A program made the position numbers and the translations under genes. A stretch of DNA of 64,000 nt from Chitinophaga pinensis (GTDB lineage Bacteria > Bacteroidota > Bacteroidia > 2-12-FULL-35-15), in assembly GCA_945885475.1 (NCBI GenBank), contig CAMCYR010000008.1, forward strand, positions 1-64,000. The letters run 5' to 3'. How positions within the stretch are numbered: position 1 is the stretch's first letter; each line of letters opens with the position of its first letter. This document shows, piece after piece, positions 6,146 to 36,281 of this stretch. The notes under the pieces were generated by a model. The model made no database searches. It was not told where the DNA came from and worked only from the letters and a program-made list of their open reading frames with translations.

Positions 6146-6318
6146 CCGTTATGGGCAAGTTTAAAAAACGAAGCGGTCAGACTAGAGAACCTCCAAAGAC
6201 AATCAATATCGACAGTTCATAATGAGTTTAGACATCAAATAAACGTGGAGACCAGCGACCACAAAAAACGGGGCGAAATCGAAAAGCCAAATGAGTAGAA
6301 AACAAAATTCAATTTATT

Positions 6319-23910: not shown

Positions 23911-25155
23911 CTATATCAAAAACTGCAATAAATTATTATTCTCATTCAAATATTCAAATTGAAATCCTGATTCAAAAAGATTTTTTTTAAGGAGATCTAA
24001 ATCTTTCGGATTCTTGATCTCCATCCCGACCAATGCAGGGCCGTTTTCACGGTTATTTTTTTTTATATATTCAAAATGAACAATATCATCTTGCGGACCA
24101 AGCACATTGGACACAAACTCTTTTAAAGCGCCTGCCCGCTGTGGAAAACGGATCACAAAAAAATGTTTGATTCCTTCATATAACAGAGAGCGTTCCCTGA
24201 TCTCTTCCGTACGCATGATATCATTATTGCTACCACTTACAATACACACAACATTTTTACCTTTTAATTTTTCACTTAACAGATCTAGGGAGGCGATGGT
24301 GAGTGCACCTGCAGGCTCCACAACGATCGCTTGTTGGTTATACAGATTTAAGATAGTGGTGCACACTTTTCCTTCCGGTACTAGAATAATCTCTGCTAAT
24401 CTATTTTTACAGATCTCAAAGTTTTTTTCACCTACTTTTTTAACTGCCGCGCCATCTACAAATTTATCGATTGTATCCAATTCGGTATTTACACCTTTTT
24501 TGATGGACAGCGACATAGAAGGTGCGCCTTGAGGTTCAACACCAATGATCTTTGTTCTGGGTGCAACCTGAGCAAAATAACTGATTATTCCGGCTGCCAG
24601 GCCGCCGCCTCCGATGGGAACAAGCACATAATCGATGCTAAAATCCGAGTCCTCTACAATCTCTTTTGCAACCGTTGCTTGTCCTTCTATCACTTTGTCA
24701 TCATCAAACGGATGCACGAAGCAAGCCGATTTTTCGATGCAGAATTTTTCTGCCGCCTTGTTTGCATCATCAAATGTATCACCCGTCAGTATCACGTCTA
24801 CATGCTCTTTTCCAAACAGTTTCACCTGATTAATTTTTTGCGATGGAGTAGTGGTCGGCATAAAAATTATACCTTTGATATTTAATTTTTTGCAGGAATA
24901 GGCAACACCCTGCGCATGATTGCCGGCGCTCGCGCAAACGATTCCATTTTTTTTTTCTGTTTCGGAAAGCGACACGATCTTATTATAGGCTCCTCTTAAT
25001 TTATAGGAACGAACTACTTGCAGATCTTCCCTTTTGAGATAAATATTGCAACCGTATATTTCACTTAGCTGAGTATTAAATTGCAAAGGTGTTCGTGTTG
25101 CCACTCCTTTCAAATGTTCTGCAGCCGTATTTATTGCTTCTAATGGTCGTATCAT
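23911..25155 (-). CDS. ilvA: Threonine ammonia-lyase (biosynthetic)
   Basis: 413 residues from the ATG at 25155, which overlaps the ilvC stop (ATGA); a longer frame to 25191 would start inside ilvC. A PLP-dependent fold II enzyme: SYKLRGAYNK contains the Schiff-base lysine (~52), CASAGNHAQGVAYSCKKL the substrate loop and VPIGGGGLAAGI the phosphate-binding glycines. The C-terminal ~80 residues (HFFVIRFPQRAGALKEFVSN) form a single ACT-like regulatory domain, as in the shorter IlvA class. It makes 2-oxobutanoate, committing threonine to isoleucine. Last gene of the ilv operon. Confidence 0.95.
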   Translation of the reverse strand: MIRPLEAINTAAEHLKGVATRTPLQFNTQLSEIYGCNIYLKREDLQVVRSYKLRGAYNKIVSLSETEKKNGIVCASAGNHAQGVAYSCKKLNIKGIIFMPTTTPSQKINQVKLFGKEHVDVILTGDTFDDANKAAEKFCIEKSACFVHPFDDDKVIEGQATVAKEIVEDSDFSIDYVLVPIGGGGLAAGIISYFAQVAPRTKIIGVEPQGAPSMSLSIKKGVNTELDTIDKFVDGAAVKKVGEKNFEICKNRLAEIILVPEGKVCTTILNLYNQQAIVVEPAGALTIASLDLLSEKLKGKNVVCIVSGSNNDIMRTEEIRERSLLYEGIKHFFVIRFPQRAGALKEFVSNVLGPQDDIVHFEYIKKNNRENGPALVGMEIKNPKDLDLLKKNLFESGFQFEYLNENNNLLQFLI

Positions 25156-26189
25156 GGTCTTAATTTTCTGACAGCAGCTCCCGCTTGCCACAATTCTGAT
25201 TCTCGTATTTCCTTCAGTTCCTTTTCTAAATTATCTCTATACGCTGGTTTACTACCTTCCGCTATAACCCTTTCTGCTTCTTTGCCGGAAGCTACGGCTT
25301 CGTATAATTCTTTAAAGACAGGCGCGGTTGCATTTCTGAATTTTCCTTTCCAATCCAATGCACCTCTTTGTGCGGTAACAGATGTGTTTGCAAACATCCA
25401 ATCCATCCCGTTTTCTGCAACCAGCGGCATCAGACTTTGTGTTAACTCTTCAACTGTTTCGTTGAATGCTTCAGAAGGCGAATGTCCATTTTCACGCAGC
25501 ACATTGAACTGCGCTTCAAACAATCCTGCCAAGGCACCCATTAAAATTCCGCGCTCACCTGTAAGATCTGAGTACACTTCTTTCTTAAAATCTGTTTCAA
25601 ATAAATATCCTGATCCTACAGCGATGCCCAATGCTAATACTCTGTCTTTCGCTTTTCCGCTTGCATCCTGAAAGATGGCGTAGCTCGAATTCAGTCCTTT
25701 ACCTTCTAAAAATAATCTTCGCAATGAAGTCCCTGAACCTTTTGGTGCAACAAGTATCACATCCACATTTGCTGGAGGAACGATGCCTGTTTTTTCATGA
25801 AAAGTTATGCCGAATCCATGAGAAAAATACAATGCTTTTCCTGCTGTTAAATGTGGTTTTATCAAATTCCAGGAAGCAATTTGTCCGGCATCGGAAAGTA
25901 AATATTGTACAATGCTTGCACGCTTAACAGCTTCTTCGATCTCAAATAGGTTTTTGTTTTCTATCCATCCATCTGCTAGTGCTTTCTCCCAGCTCTTACC
26001 ACCTTTGCGCTGACCGATGATCACGTTGATGCCGTTGTCTTTTAAATTCAACGACTGTCCCGGTCCCTGAACACCATAACCGATCACGGCCACGGTTTCT
26101 GATTTTAATACTTCACGTGCCATGTCTAAAGAGAATTCTTCACGTGTTACAACGTTTTCTAAAACGCCTCCGAAATTTATCTGTGCCAT
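25152..26189 (-). CDS. ilvC: Ketol-acid reductoisomerase (class I)
   Basis: 345 residues. The NADPH-binding start VAVIGYGVQGPGQSLNLKDNG, APKGSGTSLRRLF, and DLTGERGILMGALAGLFEAQF with ETVEELTQSLMPLVAENGMDWMF supply the Rossmann loop and the Mg-binding acidic residues. It converts acetolactate / acetohydroxybutyrate to dihydroxy acids, NADPH-dependent. Gap to ilvN is four bases and the 3' end overlaps ilvA, so it is tightly coupled in the operon. Confidence 0.97.
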   Translation of the reverse strand: MAQINFGGVLENVVTREEFSLDMAREVLKSETVAVIGYGVQGPGQSLNLKDNGINVIIGQRKGGKSWEKALADGWIENKNLFEIEEAVKRASIVQYLLSDAGQIASWNLIKPHLTAGKALYFSHGFGITFHEKTGIVPPANVDVILVAPKGSGTSLRRLFLEGKGLNSSYAIFQDASGKAKDRVLALGIAVGSGYLFETDFKKEVYSDLTGERGILMGALAGLFEAQFNVLRENGHSPSEAFNETVEELTQSLMPLVAENGMDWMFANTSVTAQRGALDWKGKFRNATAPVFKELYEAVASGKEAERVIAEGSKPAYRDNLEKELKEIRESELWQAGAAVRKLRP

Positions 26190-26193
26190 AATT

Positions 26194-26751
26194 TTAATTG
26201 TTATTAAAGTGTTTGATTGTTTTAGTACTGTTATTTTCTATTTCTTTTAAATAAGTGCTTAATGTTTTCATCGGCTTTGTGATCGCTACTTGACCGCTTC
26301 GTACAAATTCTAACATTCCGAACTTTTCTAGTTCATTGAACAAACGGCTGATTTCCCAGTCTTCTCCGGTTTTTTCTACCACAATAAATTCAGACGAGAC
26401 ACTTAAAATGTGTGCATGATGTTCGTTGATTGTGCGCGTAAAATGTTCGTTCTCTTTTAATGCATCTGATGAAACTTTATAAAGTGCAATTTCTCTACTG
26501 ACAATCTCTGGTGCCAGGTGATAAAAGGCTTTTAACACTTCGATCTGTTTATCAATTTGTCCGACTAGCTTTTCAACCAGATCTTTCGTAACATTCACCA
26601 CGATCGTATATCTATAGATACCTTTTACTTCGCTTACACTTGCTGTTATGCTTTCGATGTTGATATGTCTGCGTGTAAAAATGATCGTGATCCTATTCAG
26701 CAGTCCTATTCTATCTTCCGTAAAAATGGAAATGGTATATGTGTTTTTCAT
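26194..26751 (-). CDS. ilvN: Acetolactate synthase small (regulatory) subunit
   Basis: 185 residues. The N-terminal ACT domain is plain: YTISIFTEDRIGLLNRITIIFTRR then HINIESITASVSEVKGIYRYTI. The C-terminal ALS_ss domain has ELEKFGMLEFVRSGQVAITKP. It activates IlvB and confers valine feedback. Five bases separate it from ilvB, as expected for a stoichiometric complex. Confidence 0.95.
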   Translation of the reverse strand: MKNTYTISIFTEDRIGLLNRITIIFTRRHINIESITASVSEVKGIYRYTIVVNVTKDLVEKLVGQIDKQIEVLKAFYHLAPEIVSREIALYKVSSDALKENEHFTRTINEHHAHILSVSSEFIVVEKTGEDWEISRLFNELEKFGMLEFVRSGQVAITKPMKTLSTYLKEIENNSTKTIKHFNNN

Positions 26752-26756
26752 TTTAT

Positions 26757-28466
26757 TTATTCTAATATTATTTCTGATACACTCGCTCCGGTGGTGACCA
26801 TCGGAAAAACATTTTCTTCATTCTCGACCACTACTTCTAACAGAAACGATTCGCTGCTATCCAGCATTTCTGTCAATCCATTCATCAGGTCCTTACGTTC
26901 CGTTATTTTTTTTCCTTTGATGCCATATCCTTTTGCGATGGCTATAAAATCAGGATTTTTCATTTCGGTGAAGGAGTATCTTCTATCGAAAAATAATTGT
27001 TGCCATTGACGTACCATCCCTAAAAAGTTATTATTAACCACAAGGATCTTCACAGCGATGTTACTTTGCATGATGGTACCCAGTTCCTGTATTGTCATCT
27101 GAAATCCGCCATCACCAAGCACTGCGATTACTTGTTTGTGCGGCAAGGCAACCTTTGCTCCGATAGCAGCCGGTAGTCCGAATCCCATTGTTCCCAATCC
27201 ACCCGAGGTCACAAAATGATTGGGAAGTTTTGATTTGTAATAGCGGGACGTGATCATTTGGTGCTGCCCGACATCCGTAACAACAATAGCTGAGCCTTCC
27301 GTAAGGTTGTTCAGTTGGTGGATCACTTCCGACATTAATATATTTTTTGTATCGGGCTGTGTGGCTTTTTGTATAACCTTTTCAAACTCAACATCATTAC
27401 AGTCATAGAATTTATTCAGCCATGCTGTTCTATCTTTTTTATCTGTCAATGGAAGTAGGGCTTGAAGTGATTCTTTCGCATCACCCATCACCGCTATATC
27501 AGCTCGAATGATCTTGTTAACTTCTGAAGGATCGATCTCAAAATGAATAACCTTCGCTTGCTTTGCATATTTTTCCACATTGCCGGTAACACGGTCATCG
27601 AAACGCATTCCGATTGCGATTAATACATCACACGCATTGGTAAGTAAATTCGGACCATAGTTTCCGTGCATCCCTAAATATCCGGTATACAATTTATGGT
27701 CGGGAGGGAACGCCGATAATCCCAATAGGGTAGAAGCAACTGGTATTTGAGCTTTTTCAGCCAAAGCCAACAATTCTTTTTCTGCTCTGGATAACAACAC
27801 ACCGTGTCCGCACAATATGAATGGTCGCTCCGCAGCATTTATCATTGCAGCAGCTTTTTCTACATCATCCGCATTTACTTTTGGAGTAGGAAAATAACTC
27901 CGTATACCTTCACACTTTTCATAGTTGTACACTGTTTTTCCGAATTGAGCATCTTTGGTGATGTCAACTAAAACAGGACCCGGTCTTCCGCTTGTTGCGA
28001 TGTAAAATGCTTTCGCTATTGCCGGAGCGATATCTTCAGCTTTCGTTACTTGTATATTCCATTTGGTAACAGGCATAGAAATTCCAACAACATCTGTTTC
28101 CTGAAAAGCATCTGTTCCCAATAAGTGCGAGGCTACTTGTCCTGTGATGCAAACAAGAGGTGTTGAGTCAATCTGCGCATCCGCGATACCGGTAATTAAG
28201 TTGGTAGCACCCGGACCGGATGTAGCAAATACTACTCCCGCTTTTCCTGATACACGGGAATACCCTTGTGCAGCGTGTGTTGCACCTTGTTCATGTCTTA
28301 CTAAATAATGATTCAGTTGTTCCATATAATCATATAAGGCATCATAAACGGGCATGATCGCTCCTCCTGGATAACCAAAAACGATGCTTACATCTTCATC
28401 CAGCAGCGACAAGATCAAAGCTTCTGCTCCGGTTACTTCCTGATCATATTTTGTATGTTTTTTCAT
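26757..28466 (-). CDS. ilvB: Acetolactate synthase large (catalytic) subunit
   Basis: 569 residues. ThDP enzyme: FGYPGGAIMPVYDALY with the catalytic Glu region RHEQGATHAAQGYSR, VFATSGPGATNLITGIADAQ, the central IGMRFDDRVTG, and the ThDP motif GLGTMGFGLPAAIGAK...LGDGGFQMTIQELGT..VKILVVNNN. It condenses pyruvate with pyruvate or 2-oxobutanoate. Second-to-third position of the operon, 18 bases after ilvD. Confidence 0.97.
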   Translation of the reverse strand: MKKHTKYDQEVTGAEALILSLLDEDVSIVFGYPGGAIMPVYDALYDYMEQLNHYLVRHEQGATHAAQGYSRVSGKAGVVFATSGPGATNLITGIADAQIDSTPLVCITGQVASHLLGTDAFQETDVVGISMPVTKWNIQVTKAEDIAPAIAKAFYIATSGRPGPVLVDITKDAQFGKTVYNYEKCEGIRSYFPTPKVNADDVEKAAAMINAAERPFILCGHGVLLSRAEKELLALAEKAQIPVASTLLGLSAFPPDHKLYTGYLGMHGNYGPNLLTNACDVLIAIGMRFDDRVTGNVEKYAKQAKVIHFEIDPSEVNKIIRADIAVMGDAKESLQALLPLTDKKDRTAWLNKFYDCNDVEFEKVIQKATQPDTKNILMSEVIHQLNNLTEGSAIVVTDVGQHQMITSRYYKSKLPNHFVTSGGLGTMGFGLPAAIGAKVALPHKQVIAVLGDGGFQMTIQELGTIMQSNIAVKILVVNNNFLGMVRQWQQLFFDRRYSFTEMKNPDFIAIAKGYGIKGKKITERKDLMNGLTEMLDSSESFLLEVVVENEENVFPMVTTGASVSEIILE

Positions 28467-28484: not shown

Positions 28485-30158
28485 TTAGAGATCAGTTAAA
28501 CATCCAGTACTGGCAGAGCTTACCTGTTTTGCATATTTATAAAGCACTCCGTTTTTTACTTTTAGCATTGGCTGCTTCCATTCTTTTTTCCGTTCCGATA
28601 ATTCCGCATCGCTGAGCAGTACATTTATTTTATTTTCTACCGCATCAATCACGATCGTATCACCGTCTTTCACTAAAGCGATCGGTCCACCTTCAAATGC
28701 TTCCGGACTGACATGTCCGACTACGAAACCATGCGTCCCGCCTGAAAATCTCCCGTCAGTTATCAGCGCAACGCTGTTTCCTAATCCTGCTCCGATCAAA
28801 GCGGAAGTTGGTTTTAACATCTCCGGCATTCCCGGTCCGCCTTTCGGTCCTTCATTACGAATCACCAAAACATTTCCTGATTTTACTTTCCCTTGGCGGA
28901 TACCTGTGATGCATTCGAATTCATTTTCAAAAACAATTGCTGGACCACTGAATCTTTCACCTTCTTTGCCAGTGATCTTCGCTACGGATCCTTCCGGAGC
29001 GAGGTTTCCATACATCACTCTTAAATGTCCGCTGCTTTTTATTGGTGTCTCTATCGGTACGATCACATCTTGTCCTGCACTTAATCCAGGTACTTCCGCC
29101 AAATTTTCTGCGATAGTTTTCCCGGTCACTGTTAAGCAGTCGCCATGCAGTAATTTTTTTTCTAATAAATAATTCATCACAGCAGGTATTCCGCCAAGGG
29201 CAAATACATCTTCCATTAAATATTTTCCACTGGGCTTCAGATCAGCCAATACAGGGGTTTTTTCGTTAATACGGCTGACATCTTCCAAGGTGAATTCTAT
29301 GCCCGCTGTTTTTGCCATTGCTAGTAAATGCAATACCGCATTGGTGGAACCTCCGAGCACAACAACGATGGTCAAGGCATTTTCAAACGATTTTTTACTA
29401 AGGATGTCTGAAGGCTTGAGATCTTTTTCCAAGAGTACCTTCAAAAATTCTCCTGCCTTCAGGCACTCTTCTTTTTTCTCAGCGCTCATTGCCGGATTGG
29501 ATGAGCTAAAGGGCAAACTTAATCCTAGCGCTTCTATCGCAGATGACATGGTGTTGGCTGTGTACATTCCTCCGCAGGCACCTGCACCCGGACAAGCATT
29601 TTTTATGATACCTTTAAAATCTTCATCGCTTATTTTTCCTGCATACTTTTCACCCAATGCTTCAAAGGCGGAAACGATGTTTAATTTTTTATCCTTGTAT
29701 TTTCCCGAAGCGATTGTTCCACCGTAAACCATTATGGATGGGCGGTTTACACGGATCATTGCCATAGTAACACCGGGCATGTTTTTATCGCAGCCAGCAA
29801 TTGTGATCAGACCATCGTAATAATGTGCTGCCGTAACTGCTTCTACAGAGTCCGCAATTATTTCTCGAGAGACCAATGAATACCGCATGCCTTCTGTGCC
29901 ATTGGTGATGCCGTCGCTTATTCCGATCGTATTAAATTGCAGTCCGACCAAGCCATTTTTCTGAACACCCTCTTTCACATATTTCGAAAGCACATTCAAA
30001 TGCATGTTACAGGTATTTCCTTCATACCATGTTGAAGCAATGCCCACTTGTGCTTTCTTCATGTCATCATCGGTTAATCCTACACCATAAAGCATTGCTT
30101 GCGATGCGGGCTGCGACTCGTCCTGAGTAACTGTTCTGCTGAATTTATTTAAGTCCAT
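28485..30158 (-). CDS. ilvD: Dihydroxy-acid dehydratase
   Basis: 557 residues, usual size. The Fe-S cysteines occur in GCDKNMPG and [17 protein letters not shown], and [24 protein letters not shown] and [21 protein letters not shown] follow in order. It dehydrates dihydroxy acids to the 2-keto acids of Ile/Val. Three bases after ilvE. Confidence 0.97.
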
Positions 30159-30160
30159 AA

Positions 30161-31051
30161 TTATACAAATGAAAAATTACCATATTCGTTAAATGCAACT
30201 CTGCGTGCATATTTAGCTTGCAATACCGACCCGAGTGAATCTTCCCATCTTAATTTAAAATTCACCCTGTCTAAAGATTGGATGCCAGCTACTTCAGCTG
30301 CTGTTCCTGTGAAAAAAGCACTGTCTGCTCCTTTTACTTCTTCCGGAGTAAAGTGTTTTTCTACCAATTTGAATCCCAACTCTTCACACAATTCAAACAT
30401 CGTTGCGCGTGTGATACCTGGTAAAATATTTCCAAGTGGCGAGGTATATAGTACCTCATCTTTTTCAAAAAAGAAGTTTGCTCCGGGGCCTTCAGCAACA
30501 AATCCGTTTGCATCTAACAGCAATGCTTCATCAAATCCTTTTTGTTTCGCTTCCGTTGTCGCCAGGATCGAGTTCACATAATGTCCAGTTACTTTCGCCT
30601 CTACATGGCAGGATTTCGGGTTGGGACGTTGATAAGAGGATATCATGACATCTAGTAATTTGTTTCCTAAATATTTACCCCATTCCCAGGCGCAAAGCAT
30701 TACATGCACTTCATCTGTTGGTGTAAGCGACATGTTTGCTCCTGCAAATATTAATGGACGGATATAGGCATTTCCCAAATTGTTCTTTTCCAATAAGTGA
30801 TACGTCAGTTTTGTAAATTCTGCTGACGTGTAAGGTGCACGCAGATACATCCTTTCAGCAGAATGCAGTAAACGATCATAATGCGCTTCCGATTTGAAGA
30901 TCTTTGTTCCATCGGGTGTTGCATAGGATCTGATTCCCTCAAAAACTCCGTTGCCATAATGCATGGATTGCACATACGGACTAATCATGAGGTCTTTTGC
31001 TTTGAGCCATTCTCCATTAAAAAATACCACTGTGTTGTCGTTGTAATACAT
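30161..31051 (-). CDS. ilvE: Branched-chain amino acid aminotransferase
   Basis: 296 residues, fold IV PLP enzyme: [14 protein letters not shown] near the N-terminus, [13 protein letters not shown]-type sequence with the PLP lysine ([11 protein letters not shown]), [18 protein letters not shown], and [15 protein letters not shown]. It performs the last amination to Leu/Ile/Val. First structural gene of the operon, directly behind a long regulated leader. Confidence 0.95.
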
Positions 31052-31081: not shown

Positions 31082-31113
31082 AAAAAACCCTTTGTCTTTT
31101 ATGAGAAGGGCTT
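31082..31113 (-). terminator. ilv attenuator terminator 2
   Basis: On the minus strand GCCCTT - loop - AAGGG then TTTTTT, 20 bases after leader peptide 2 and just before ilvE. Its 5' arm includes TTCTCAT (31101-31107 in + coordinates), which can instead pair perfectly with ATGAGAA at the leader-2 stop codon (31130-31136), an antiterminator. Confidence 0.7.
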
Positions 31114-31132
31114 TTTTTAAAAAAAGTAATTC

Positions 31133-31183
31133 TCATGCCGGCAGATGAATAATAATGACTGCTGTAATAATAGATATTTTCAT
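31133..31183 (-). CDS. ilv operon leader peptide 2
   Basis: 16 codons: MKISIITAVIIIHLPA. Six of 16 are Ile with a Val beside them, matching the operon product. The stop TGA overlaps the antiterminator arm ATGAGAA. It lies between attenuator 1 and attenuator 2. An in-frame upstream ATG at about 31237 would give a longer version that reads through terminator 1. Too short for ordinary gene calling, so this rests on codon content and position. Confidence 0.65.
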   Translation of the reverse strand: MKISIITAVIIIHLPA

Positions 31184-31193
31184 AATTTTTAAA

Positions 31194-31226
31194 ATAAAAA
31201 AAGCCTTTCCGTTAAGGAAAGGCTTT
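31194..31226 (-). terminator. ilv attenuator terminator 1
   Basis: On the minus strand AAAGCCTTTCC - ttaac - GGAAAGGCTTT followed by TTTT: an 11-bp perfect stem with a U-tract. Its 5' arm CCTTTCCTT (31214-31222) can alternatively pair with AAGGGAGAGG (31246-31255), which lies right at the leader-1 stop codon. Confidence 0.8.
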
Positions 31227-31253
31227 CTATAAAACATAGCAAAATCCTCTCCC

Positions 31254-31301
31254 TTAAAGGGTTTGAATAATGATAATAATATATAAAGTTTGGTTTTTCA
31301 T
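31254..31301 (-). CDS. ilv operon leader peptide 1
   Basis: 15 codons: MKNQTLYIIIIIQTL, with five consecutive Ile codons (ATT/ATC). The TAA stop lies inside the antiterminator arm (…CTTTAAGGGAGAGG). A ribosome stalled at the Ile run leaves that arm free to break terminator 1; a ribosome reaching the stop covers it. This is the classic attenuation geometry. Confidence 0.75.
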   Translation of the reverse strand: MKNQTLYIIIIIQTL

Positions 31302-31315
31302 TTTTTTTATCGTGA

Positions 31316-31323
31316 CAAATGTA
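31316..31323 (-). promoter_or_regulatory. ilv operon promoter (-7 box)
   Basis: TACATTTG on the minus strand matches TAnnTTTG. A TTG lies 15 bases upstream, shorter than the usual 19-21. Transcription would start about eight bases before the ATG of leader peptide 1. No other good box lies between here and the leader. Confidence 0.45.
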
Positions 31324-31438
31324 AATCAATTAAGTATTCAAATACACGAAAAATTTTTTTTTTAGTAAGTCTGATTTAATGTTCCTTCGTTTTTTATGTA
31401 TTACCTTAACGTTAATATGTATTAGCTTGTTAAATAAA

Positions 31439-32491
31439 CTATTTAAAACTAGCTTGATTTTTAATATTGAAGGGATTCGGAGTCACAAAACGCAATACGA
31501 TCTCTAATCCTCCTTTATATGAACTCGCTGTTTTTAATCCCGACATGTTTATATCGTAGCTTACCCCGAATGCATAATTTGAATATTCATAAAGGATGGA
31601 AGCGATGAGTGCATCTTTTAAACGATAATCGACACCGATCGAAACTGCTGAACTTTTTTTGATGTTTGTGTATTTCGAACCTTCCTGTAAAACATATTTA
31701 AATACACTTCCCATGATCACTTCTTGTTGTGTTCCTTGTCGGACAAATAAAAGTTCGGGAGCGATCAACAGATTTGTATTTTTGATTCCGAATTCAACTG
31801 TCCCTTGTGCTATAAATTTTGTATTTAGTTTTTCTCCTGTCTTTCCGTAAAACGAATAGTCAGGTAAGCCGAAGTGAAAAGCAGAAATTCCCAGCATAGC
31901 GTGTACACCATTGTTTGCCGAAATGTATTGCTGATCTTTTCCATAGGTCCAAGCCATTCCTGCTCCCAGATCCGGGTAAGTATAAGAGGTAACGCCTGCT
32001 GCTTCTCCCGTTGGAGCGGTTGCATCAAAAGCTGTTCCTACATACTGACTTTCCCATTGCAAGGCAGAGTAGTTTACAGTACGCTGGCCGAATCCTCCCA
32101 TGATGCCCATTCCTAATTTGCTGCGGTCGCTCAACTTTACAACTCCCGACAGATTTAAAGAACCAAAATTATTTCCCATTTGAGAATCACCTGCTTTATC
32201 TGAAACCAGTTGAATGCCCAATCCGATATAATTGTCCTTGCTTTTTTTCTTAGAGGTATTCAACTCCGCCGAAAATGCAAATGTTTTATAAGGTGAAACA
32301 AAACTTCTCCATTGATCTTTGTAATTTAAAACAATACGAAGATCTTTGTTCAAAGCGGTCATACCCGGGTTAAGCGCCATGGGCGTTTCTCTGAATTGTG
32401 AAAAGTGAATATCTTGTGCTTTGTAATTTAAAACAAAGAAAAAACTTATTCCAAAGATCAGAATGATTATTTTGCTTTTTAGATTTTTCAT
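31439..32491 (-). CDS. PorP/SprF family type IX secretion outer-membrane protein
   Basis: 350 residues with a signal peptide (to ~YKAQD). The opening DIHFSQFRETPMALNPGMTALNKDLRI and YKDQWRSFVSPYKTFAFSAE are the PorP/SprF signature (HFSQF...NPA; YrnQW). The rest is a beta-barrel. SprF-type proteins anchor or export partner proteins with type B (gliding-motility) C-terminal domains. The neighbour just upstream (13-bp gap) is exactly such a protein, so this is a dedicated pair. Confidence 0.92.
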   Translation of the reverse strand: MKNLKSKIIILIFGISFFFVLNYKAQDIHFSQFRETPMALNPGMTALNKDLRIVLNYKDQWRSFVSPYKTFAFSAELNTSKKKSKDNYIGLGIQLVSDKAGDSQMGNNFGSLNLSGVVKLSDRSKLGMGIMGGFGQRTVNYSALQWESQYVGTAFDATAPTGEAAGVTSYTYPDLGAGMAWTYGKDQQYISANNGVHAMLGISAFHFGLPDYSFYGKTGEKLNTKFIAQGTVEFGIKNTNLLIAPELLFVRQGTQQEVIMGSVFKYVLQEGSKYTNIKKSSAVSIGVDYRLKDALIASILYEYSNYAFGVSYDINMSGLKTASSYKGGLEIVLRFVTPNPFNIKNQASFK

Positions 32492-35936: not shown

Positions 35937-36140
35937 CTAAATAGTTCTTTTTTCTCTGTTTTTAAATTCCAGTATTAATCGTAGCCGGATAAGTCCTTTA
36001 TCTTGTATTTCTTTTAGCTCATCCATACTTTTGTCTGAAAGTTCCTGGCGCGTATACAATTCTGTATTTCTCAGAATACGAGCGATTGTTCTTGTTTTTA
36101 ATATGTTATCTGATATATTCGTTTTATTTGTCTTTCTCAC
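35937..36140 (-). CDS. Hypothetical protein, 67 residues
   Basis: A charged, helical small protein (TRTIARILRNTELYTRQELSDKSMDELKEIQ). No family or signal peptide is recognised. The ~480-bp gap between the surface protein and the next gene otherwise appears empty. It may be a small regulator; it could also be a chance frame. Confidence 0.35.
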   Translation of the reverse strand: MRKTNKTNISDNILKTRTIARILRNTELYTRQELSDKSMDELKEIQDKGLIRLRLILEFKNREKRTI

Positions 36141-36281
36141 TTCACTCTGGTTTTTTAATTATTTCAGCAATAAATTTTACTTTTTTTATCGTTTGGTTAT
36201 TTTCTAAACTAAAAATAATCAATTGATATTTGTTTAACATAAAATTAATTCATAATTTTAGTAAGTCTGAAATTTAAAACT

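Follow-up and report, generated by a model that had tools for sequence, protein, structure and literature searches.

The window, i.e. the whole 64-kb stretch of DNA analysed, carries an Ile/Val operon on its minus strand with the gene order ilvE-ilvD-ilvB-ilvN-ilvC-ilvA. Each gene scored above the cut-off of the TIGR model given in brackets.

30161..31051, minus strand: ilvE, first gene of the operon (TIGR01122)
28485..30158, minus strand: ilvD (TIGR00110)
26757..28466, minus strand: ilvB, acetolactate synthase large subunit (TIGR00118)
26194..26751, minus strand: ilvN, acetolactate synthase small subunit (TIGR00119)
25152..26189, minus strand: ilvC (TIGR00465)
23911..25191, minus strand: ilvA, threonine ammonia-lyase (TIGR02079)

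No leuA was found by TIGR00973 in the window's genome (G000, 99%-complete) despite the full ilv operon; judged by TIGR00973 alone, the products of the operon may be confined to Ile and Val. Counting the window's own genome, just 9 of the 36 genomes of the genus have a close IlvE match (at least 78% identity), which suggests that Ile/Val prototrophy is patchy in the genus.

The gene upstream of the operon (31439-32491) is co-directional with ilv. Between its end at 31439 and the start of ilvE at 31051 lie, in this order, leader 1, terminator 1, leader 2 and terminator 2; the stretch from the upstream gene to unit 1 showed no further strong terminator. The original prediction had placed two tandem units with Ile-rich leaders before ilv, and both leaders and both terminators are present as it described. 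The features of the region are as follows.

31361..31374, minus strand: conserved element TCAGACTTACTAAA, kept in relatives with 0-3 mismatches at a fixed distance of 51-53 bp ahead of the -7 box
31316..31323, minus strand: -7 promoter box TACATTTG, fitting TAnnTTTG, starting 22 bp ahead of leader 1 here and kept at 21-22 bp from it across the six tandem relatives
31254..31301, minus strand: leader peptide 1, MKNQTLYIIIIIQTL, whose 15-codon frame and [IV]5 run are kept across six loci
31246..31254, minus strand: segment 2 of unit 1, the antiterminator 5' arm, beginning within the stop codon and occupying the same alignment columns in 18 units
31214..31222, minus strand: segment 3 of unit 1, common to the antiterminator and terminator 1 in the alignment of 18 units
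31198..31228, minus strand: terminator 1 hairpin, 13 pairs, -17.3 kcal/mol, T7 tract at 31202-31196
31133..31183, minus strand: leader peptide 2, MKISIITAVIIIHLPA, conserved in six loci with lengths of 42, 51 and 54 nt
31130..31136, minus strand: segment 2 of unit 2, ATGAGAA, including the TGA stop, from the pairing analysis
31101..31107, minus strand: segment 3 of unit 2, TTCTCAT, from the pairing analysis
31082..31116, minus strand: terminator 2 hairpin, imperfect stem, -10.6 kcal/mol, stronger in relatives

No Rfam family matched at the ilv leader locus at gathering thresholds, and a T-box or riboswitch leader was rejected for want of such a match. Elsewhere in the window, the DUF805 RNA (RF03081) was found with 74.6 bits at 6240-6305 on the plus strand.

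In unit 1, the stem described earlier as a perfect 11 bp terminator was confirmed as the core of the hairpin, which has 13 pairs in the fold and is followed by T7. An arm at each leader stop had also been said to pair with the 5' arm of the terminator, and this holds for both units, with class-wide support described below. GGGAGAGG, directly after the stop codon of leader 1, pairs with CCTTTCCTT in the terminator's 5' arm, so that 31254-31246 is joined to 31222-31214 by 9 bp including a G-U pair. Nascent RNA folded up to segment 3 gave the antiterminator (-15.5 kcal/mol), and RNA extended through segment 4 gave the terminator (-19.2 kcal/mol). As the terminator is the more stable of the two with segment 2 free, antitermination must be kinetic. 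The last Ile codon of leader 1 is three codons before the stop. Furthermore, an ATG inside unit 1 opens a frame (31237-31133, minus strand) that runs through terminator 1 and in frame into leader 2 (MFYRKPFLNGKAFFILKIMKISIITAVIIIHLPA); it is also found in L009, is absent from the other relatives and is probably incidental.

In unit 2, the alternative pairing joins 31136-31130 to 31107-31101 by 7 bp, and the last Ile codon is four codons before the stop. The second terminator proposed after leader 2 is present as a hairpin, albeit with an imperfect stem. The folds are weaker than those of unit 1 (antiterminator -8.9, extended fold -12.8 kcal/mol), and the advantage of the native pairing is small (-9.8 vs -8.7 kcal/mol). 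A recent origin of unit 2 as a copy of unit 1 in this genome is not supported: the two are 77% identical (gapped, over a short AT-rich stretch), which is no higher than for the dissimilar units of locus L095.

Close relatives were taken from congeneric genomes and related contigs. Both units are kept in five of them with non-identical sequence (L004/L033, L005/L104, L007/L045, L009/L048, L010/L047), where paired loci such as L004/L033 look like one sequence from two collections. A check proposed with the original prediction, conservation of the leader peptides, thus came out in its favour, as frames and Ile/Val runs are conserved for both units in the six loci. Leader 1 reads MKNQTLYIIIIIQTL, MIKQALYIIVIIHPL, MKKQNLYIIVIIQTL, MKTQNLYIIVIIQTP, MKTQNLYIVVIIQTL and MKTQNLYIIIIIQTP across these loci; 17 of its sites vary, and 9 of these are third positions of codons. 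The three lengths of leader 2 mean that its insertions and deletions are whole codons. It had been suggested that leader 1 senses mainly Ile and leader 2 Ile and Val. This division is not borne out within this clade: in the relatives, one or two of the five residues of the leader 1 run are Val (YIIVIIQTL, YIVVIIQTL), and Ile dominates leader 2 to the same degree. A single unit is present in the other close relatives, and its terminator (AAGCCTTTC..GAAAGGCTT) is similar to terminator 1. When 18 such units were aligned, the antiterminator stem fell on the same columns in nearly all, with 91.6% of cells paired compared to at most 75% when slid; the terminator helix has 94.4% of cells paired and some double-sided changes. 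Covariation of the antiterminator within this close set of 18 units did not exceed that of shuffles.

The -7 box before leader 1 fits TAnnTTTG, which is given as the Bacteroidota sigma-A -7 consensus in PMC9723704, and the expected transcription start predicted from it is about 31311. No clear -33 element was seen at the ilv promoter. Of 31 tandem loci, 18 carry a TAnnTTTG no more than 60 nt ahead of the pair's first leader, and in none of the 31 does one lie in the stretch separating the leaders. As the one conserved -7 box precedes leader 1 and the leaders have none between them, both units should share one transcript. An ilv start downstream of one of the units had been named as a finding that would count against the prediction; a start site between the units appears unlikely on these counts.

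The upstream element TCAGACTTACTAAA is common to relatives with single and double units. It was found in L001, L004, L005, L035-L038, L040-L042, L064, L006 and L011, and not in L007, L009, L010, L008 and L046. It is possible that this is an activator site of the ilv promoter, or the site of some regulator. The exact sequence occurs twice in the genome, both times on the minus strand, at 31361-31374 and at 36257-36270; the latter precedes a small ORF near 36140.

For a wider comparison, IlvE was used to collect loci from genome contigs, and both IlvE and IlvD to collect them from genomes of the same class. A fixed detector was used, requiring a leader with at least 5 I/L/V in the last 14 residues and a terminator within 75 nt. 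Within 450 nt, 65 of 105 distinct ilvE-first loci have one unit and 22 have two, i.e. 87 have at least one. Within 900 nt the numbers are 57 with one unit, 29 with two, 2 with three and 17 with none. One of the triples, L080, includes a spurious detector match at its far end and was counted as two, giving about 30 two-unit loci within 900 nt. The other is Oceanihabitans sediminis (L095); its units 2 and 3 share 84% identity, their leaders read MTTHTNIIIISIIIRSRE and MTTFTNIIISIINIRSPE, and they evidently arose by duplication. When ilvE upstream regions were dinucleotide-shuffled, none of 420 shuffles gave a match, and 105 reverse complements gave 2; a chance origin of the leader and terminator units was rejected on this basis. 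On both strands of the 64-kb window, the ilv locus is the only place with two units, besides 2 unrelated single matches. Most ilvD-first loci are without any unit. The tandem counts are lower bounds, as the second unit of L093 has a leader without ATG; no third unit was seen in a long gap before ilvE in the loci inspected. The remark that single attenuators occur in Bacteroidota was right as far as it went, and understated the case, since units in tandem are a common arrangement in the phylum.

At least 13 changes in unit number (one versus two or more) fall on a quick IlvE tree of 98 loci, a rough figure, since many deep branches are weak. In the tandem loci the first unit ends mostly with TAA or TAG (25/31), and the last unit with TGA (28/31), since TGA there forms part of segment 2. 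Val-Val makes up the last two branched-chain residues in nine first leaders compared to one last leader, a pattern that may reflect few events, most carriers being Roseivirga and its kin.

Pairing was evaluated over 131 units between the region from 12 nt before the leader end onward and the terminator 5' arm with its loop. The mean energy was -12.4 kcal/mol for own, -8.5 for foreign and -6.7 for shuffled own partners (Wilcoxon 5e-16 against foreign and 2e-22 against shuffled, uncorrected for the ancestry that the units share). The foreign control contains relatives and is therefore conservative. The last Ile or Val is separated from the stop by 3 to 5 codons in 80 of the 131 units, and segment 2 starts within the stop codon or next to it in the loci inspected.

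The locus has the parts of a classical attenuator twice over. Both leaders are short ORFs rich in codons for a product of the pathway, Ile, before an Ile/Val operon. Intrinsic terminators lie between the leaders and the first gene, terminator 1 being strong and terminator 2 weaker here. The antiterminators use the terminators' 5' arms and are mutually exclusive with them; the structure prediction asked for earlier gave both alternative pairings beside the two terminators. Given the usual ribosome footprint, most of segment 2 would stay accessible during a stall at the last Ile codon and be masked once the ribosome has reached the stop; from their spacing, the sensing codons appear to be placed for this. 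Furthermore, the same genome has an ordinary single his attenuator ahead of hisG (L206, on the reverse strand of the locus in G000:C40), made up of the leader MKTILSIHHHHTYSTGEHAMYCVI and one terminator, and leader-peptide attenuation appears to be in use in this genome.

We propose, with a probability of about 0.83, that two classical ribosome-mediated attenuators stand in series before ilvE behind one promoter, sensing the charging of Ile (and Val) tRNA. The sequence itself shows these parts and that they are conserved, pairings that exclude one another, and just one conserved -7 box. Transcription from the promoter upstream of leader 1 would give one transcript that passes both attenuators before ilvE. 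In each unit a ribosome would translate the short leader, in which the Ile and some Val codons finish 3-4 codons ahead of the stop. With ample charged tRNA-Ile, the ribosome would get as far as the stop and cover segment 2, the terminator would form and RNA polymerase would leave. When it is scarce, the ribosome would stall on the Ile run, the free segment 2 would pair with segment 3 and the polymerase would continue. From these parts we infer ribosome stalling and termination in vivo, and likewise a multiplied response, as transcripts antiterminated twice would alone reach the operon and read-through would multiply. The steeper or graded response suggested originally is plausible, following only from multiplying two read-through probabilities.

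Three other readings were weighed against two attenuators in series. The weakness of terminator 2, at -10.6 kcal/mol with an imperfect 3' arm compared to -12.3 to -21.8 kcal/mol in L004, L005, L007, L009 and L010, would fit a species in which only unit 1 works and unit 2 is the decaying relic of a tandem arrangement functional in relatives. The segment 2 pairing of just 7 bp and the single unit of many close relatives point the same way. However, leader 2 retains its frame, the VIIIH run and the TGA stop, and terminator 2 its lower stem and T6 tail, and we consider such decay unlikely.

It is less likely still that terminator 1 belongs to the upstream gene, with an ilv start between the units and unit 2 alone regulating ilv. 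The upstream gene is co-directional and no other strong terminator was seen before unit 1, as that reading would have it; but the -7 box is conserved before leader 1 and missing between the leaders of all 31 tandem loci, and leader 1 is itself conserved as a coding frame. L009, moreover, has its own separate terminator upstream of unit 1, and in L105, L085 and L095 the nearest long upstream frame is on the opposite strand, so that the first terminator cannot simply end a co-directional upstream gene there. Slightly more improbable again is that the leaders act by nascent-peptide arrest or translational coupling and not through tRNA-Ile shortage at Ile codons. Short conserved peptides before regulated genes can work in this way in other systems, yet what the leaders share class-wide is just their Ile/Val character and the distance to the stop, and not the peptide sequence. 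Very probably the locus holds two attenuators in series that work or did so until recently.

The enterobacterial ilvGMEDA and ilvB attenuators likewise have an Ile/Val-rich leader and a segment 2-3 antiterminator competing with a 3-4 terminator before ilv. They have one attenuator per operon, whereas here two separate units of leader and terminator stand in series and the leaders are shorter. The Salmonella mgtCBR leader (PMC3641672) resembles the present locus in that its single leader RNA carries a pair of short ORFs and two switches resembling attenuation. Its tandem attenuators respond to proline and ATP, its stem-loops are unlike intrinsic terminators, and its authors regarded it as a singular example (PMC3641672); both ilv units here, in contrast, have intrinsic terminators and branched-chain leaders. 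The rimP leader of some Gammaproteobacteria (PMC2965389) also has two serial terminators, the upstream one with a possible antiterminator, but no leader peptides or amino-acid sensing are described for it. Tandem riboswitches, e.g. B. clausii metE as cited in PMC3641672, have two terminators per leader RNA with a sensor each; those sensors are ligand-binding RNA, and here they are translated leaders. Of the same phylum and with the same kind of switch is Flavobacterium psychrophilum, for which leader-peptide attenuation upstream of amino-acid operons was inferred from transcriptome data; the main text of PMC9723704 mentions neither ilv nor tandem units.

Attenuation in Bacteroidota and tandem attenuators in other systems are known already. 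Literature searches gave nothing specific on ilv attenuation in Bacteroidota. No description of recurrent tandem branched-chain attenuators before ilv was found in the literature searched, which omits most subscription journals, and earlier comparative work on attenuation, cited in PMC4833913, may include Bacteroidota. As far as sequence can tell, serial ilv attenuators are a recurrent two-stage, once three-stage, arrangement in many Bacteroidota. More tentatively, they may be a modular multi-stage attenuator of the phylum, in which a module of about 120 nt is duplicated and the stages differ in role (the first mostly with TAA/TAG and in some lineages Val codons, the last with TGA and Ile codons), combining Ile and Val signals in series.

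Amino-acid attenuation is normally described as a single switch. The same operon with two or three stacked switches, and with one in close species, is a natural experiment on the reason for stacking. Candidate benefits are a wider dynamic range, a sharper threshold, a lower leak and the combination of two amino acids. As carriers are found among cultured Roseivirga, Winogradskyella, Ulvibacter and Oceanihabitans, the question of stacking is directly testable.
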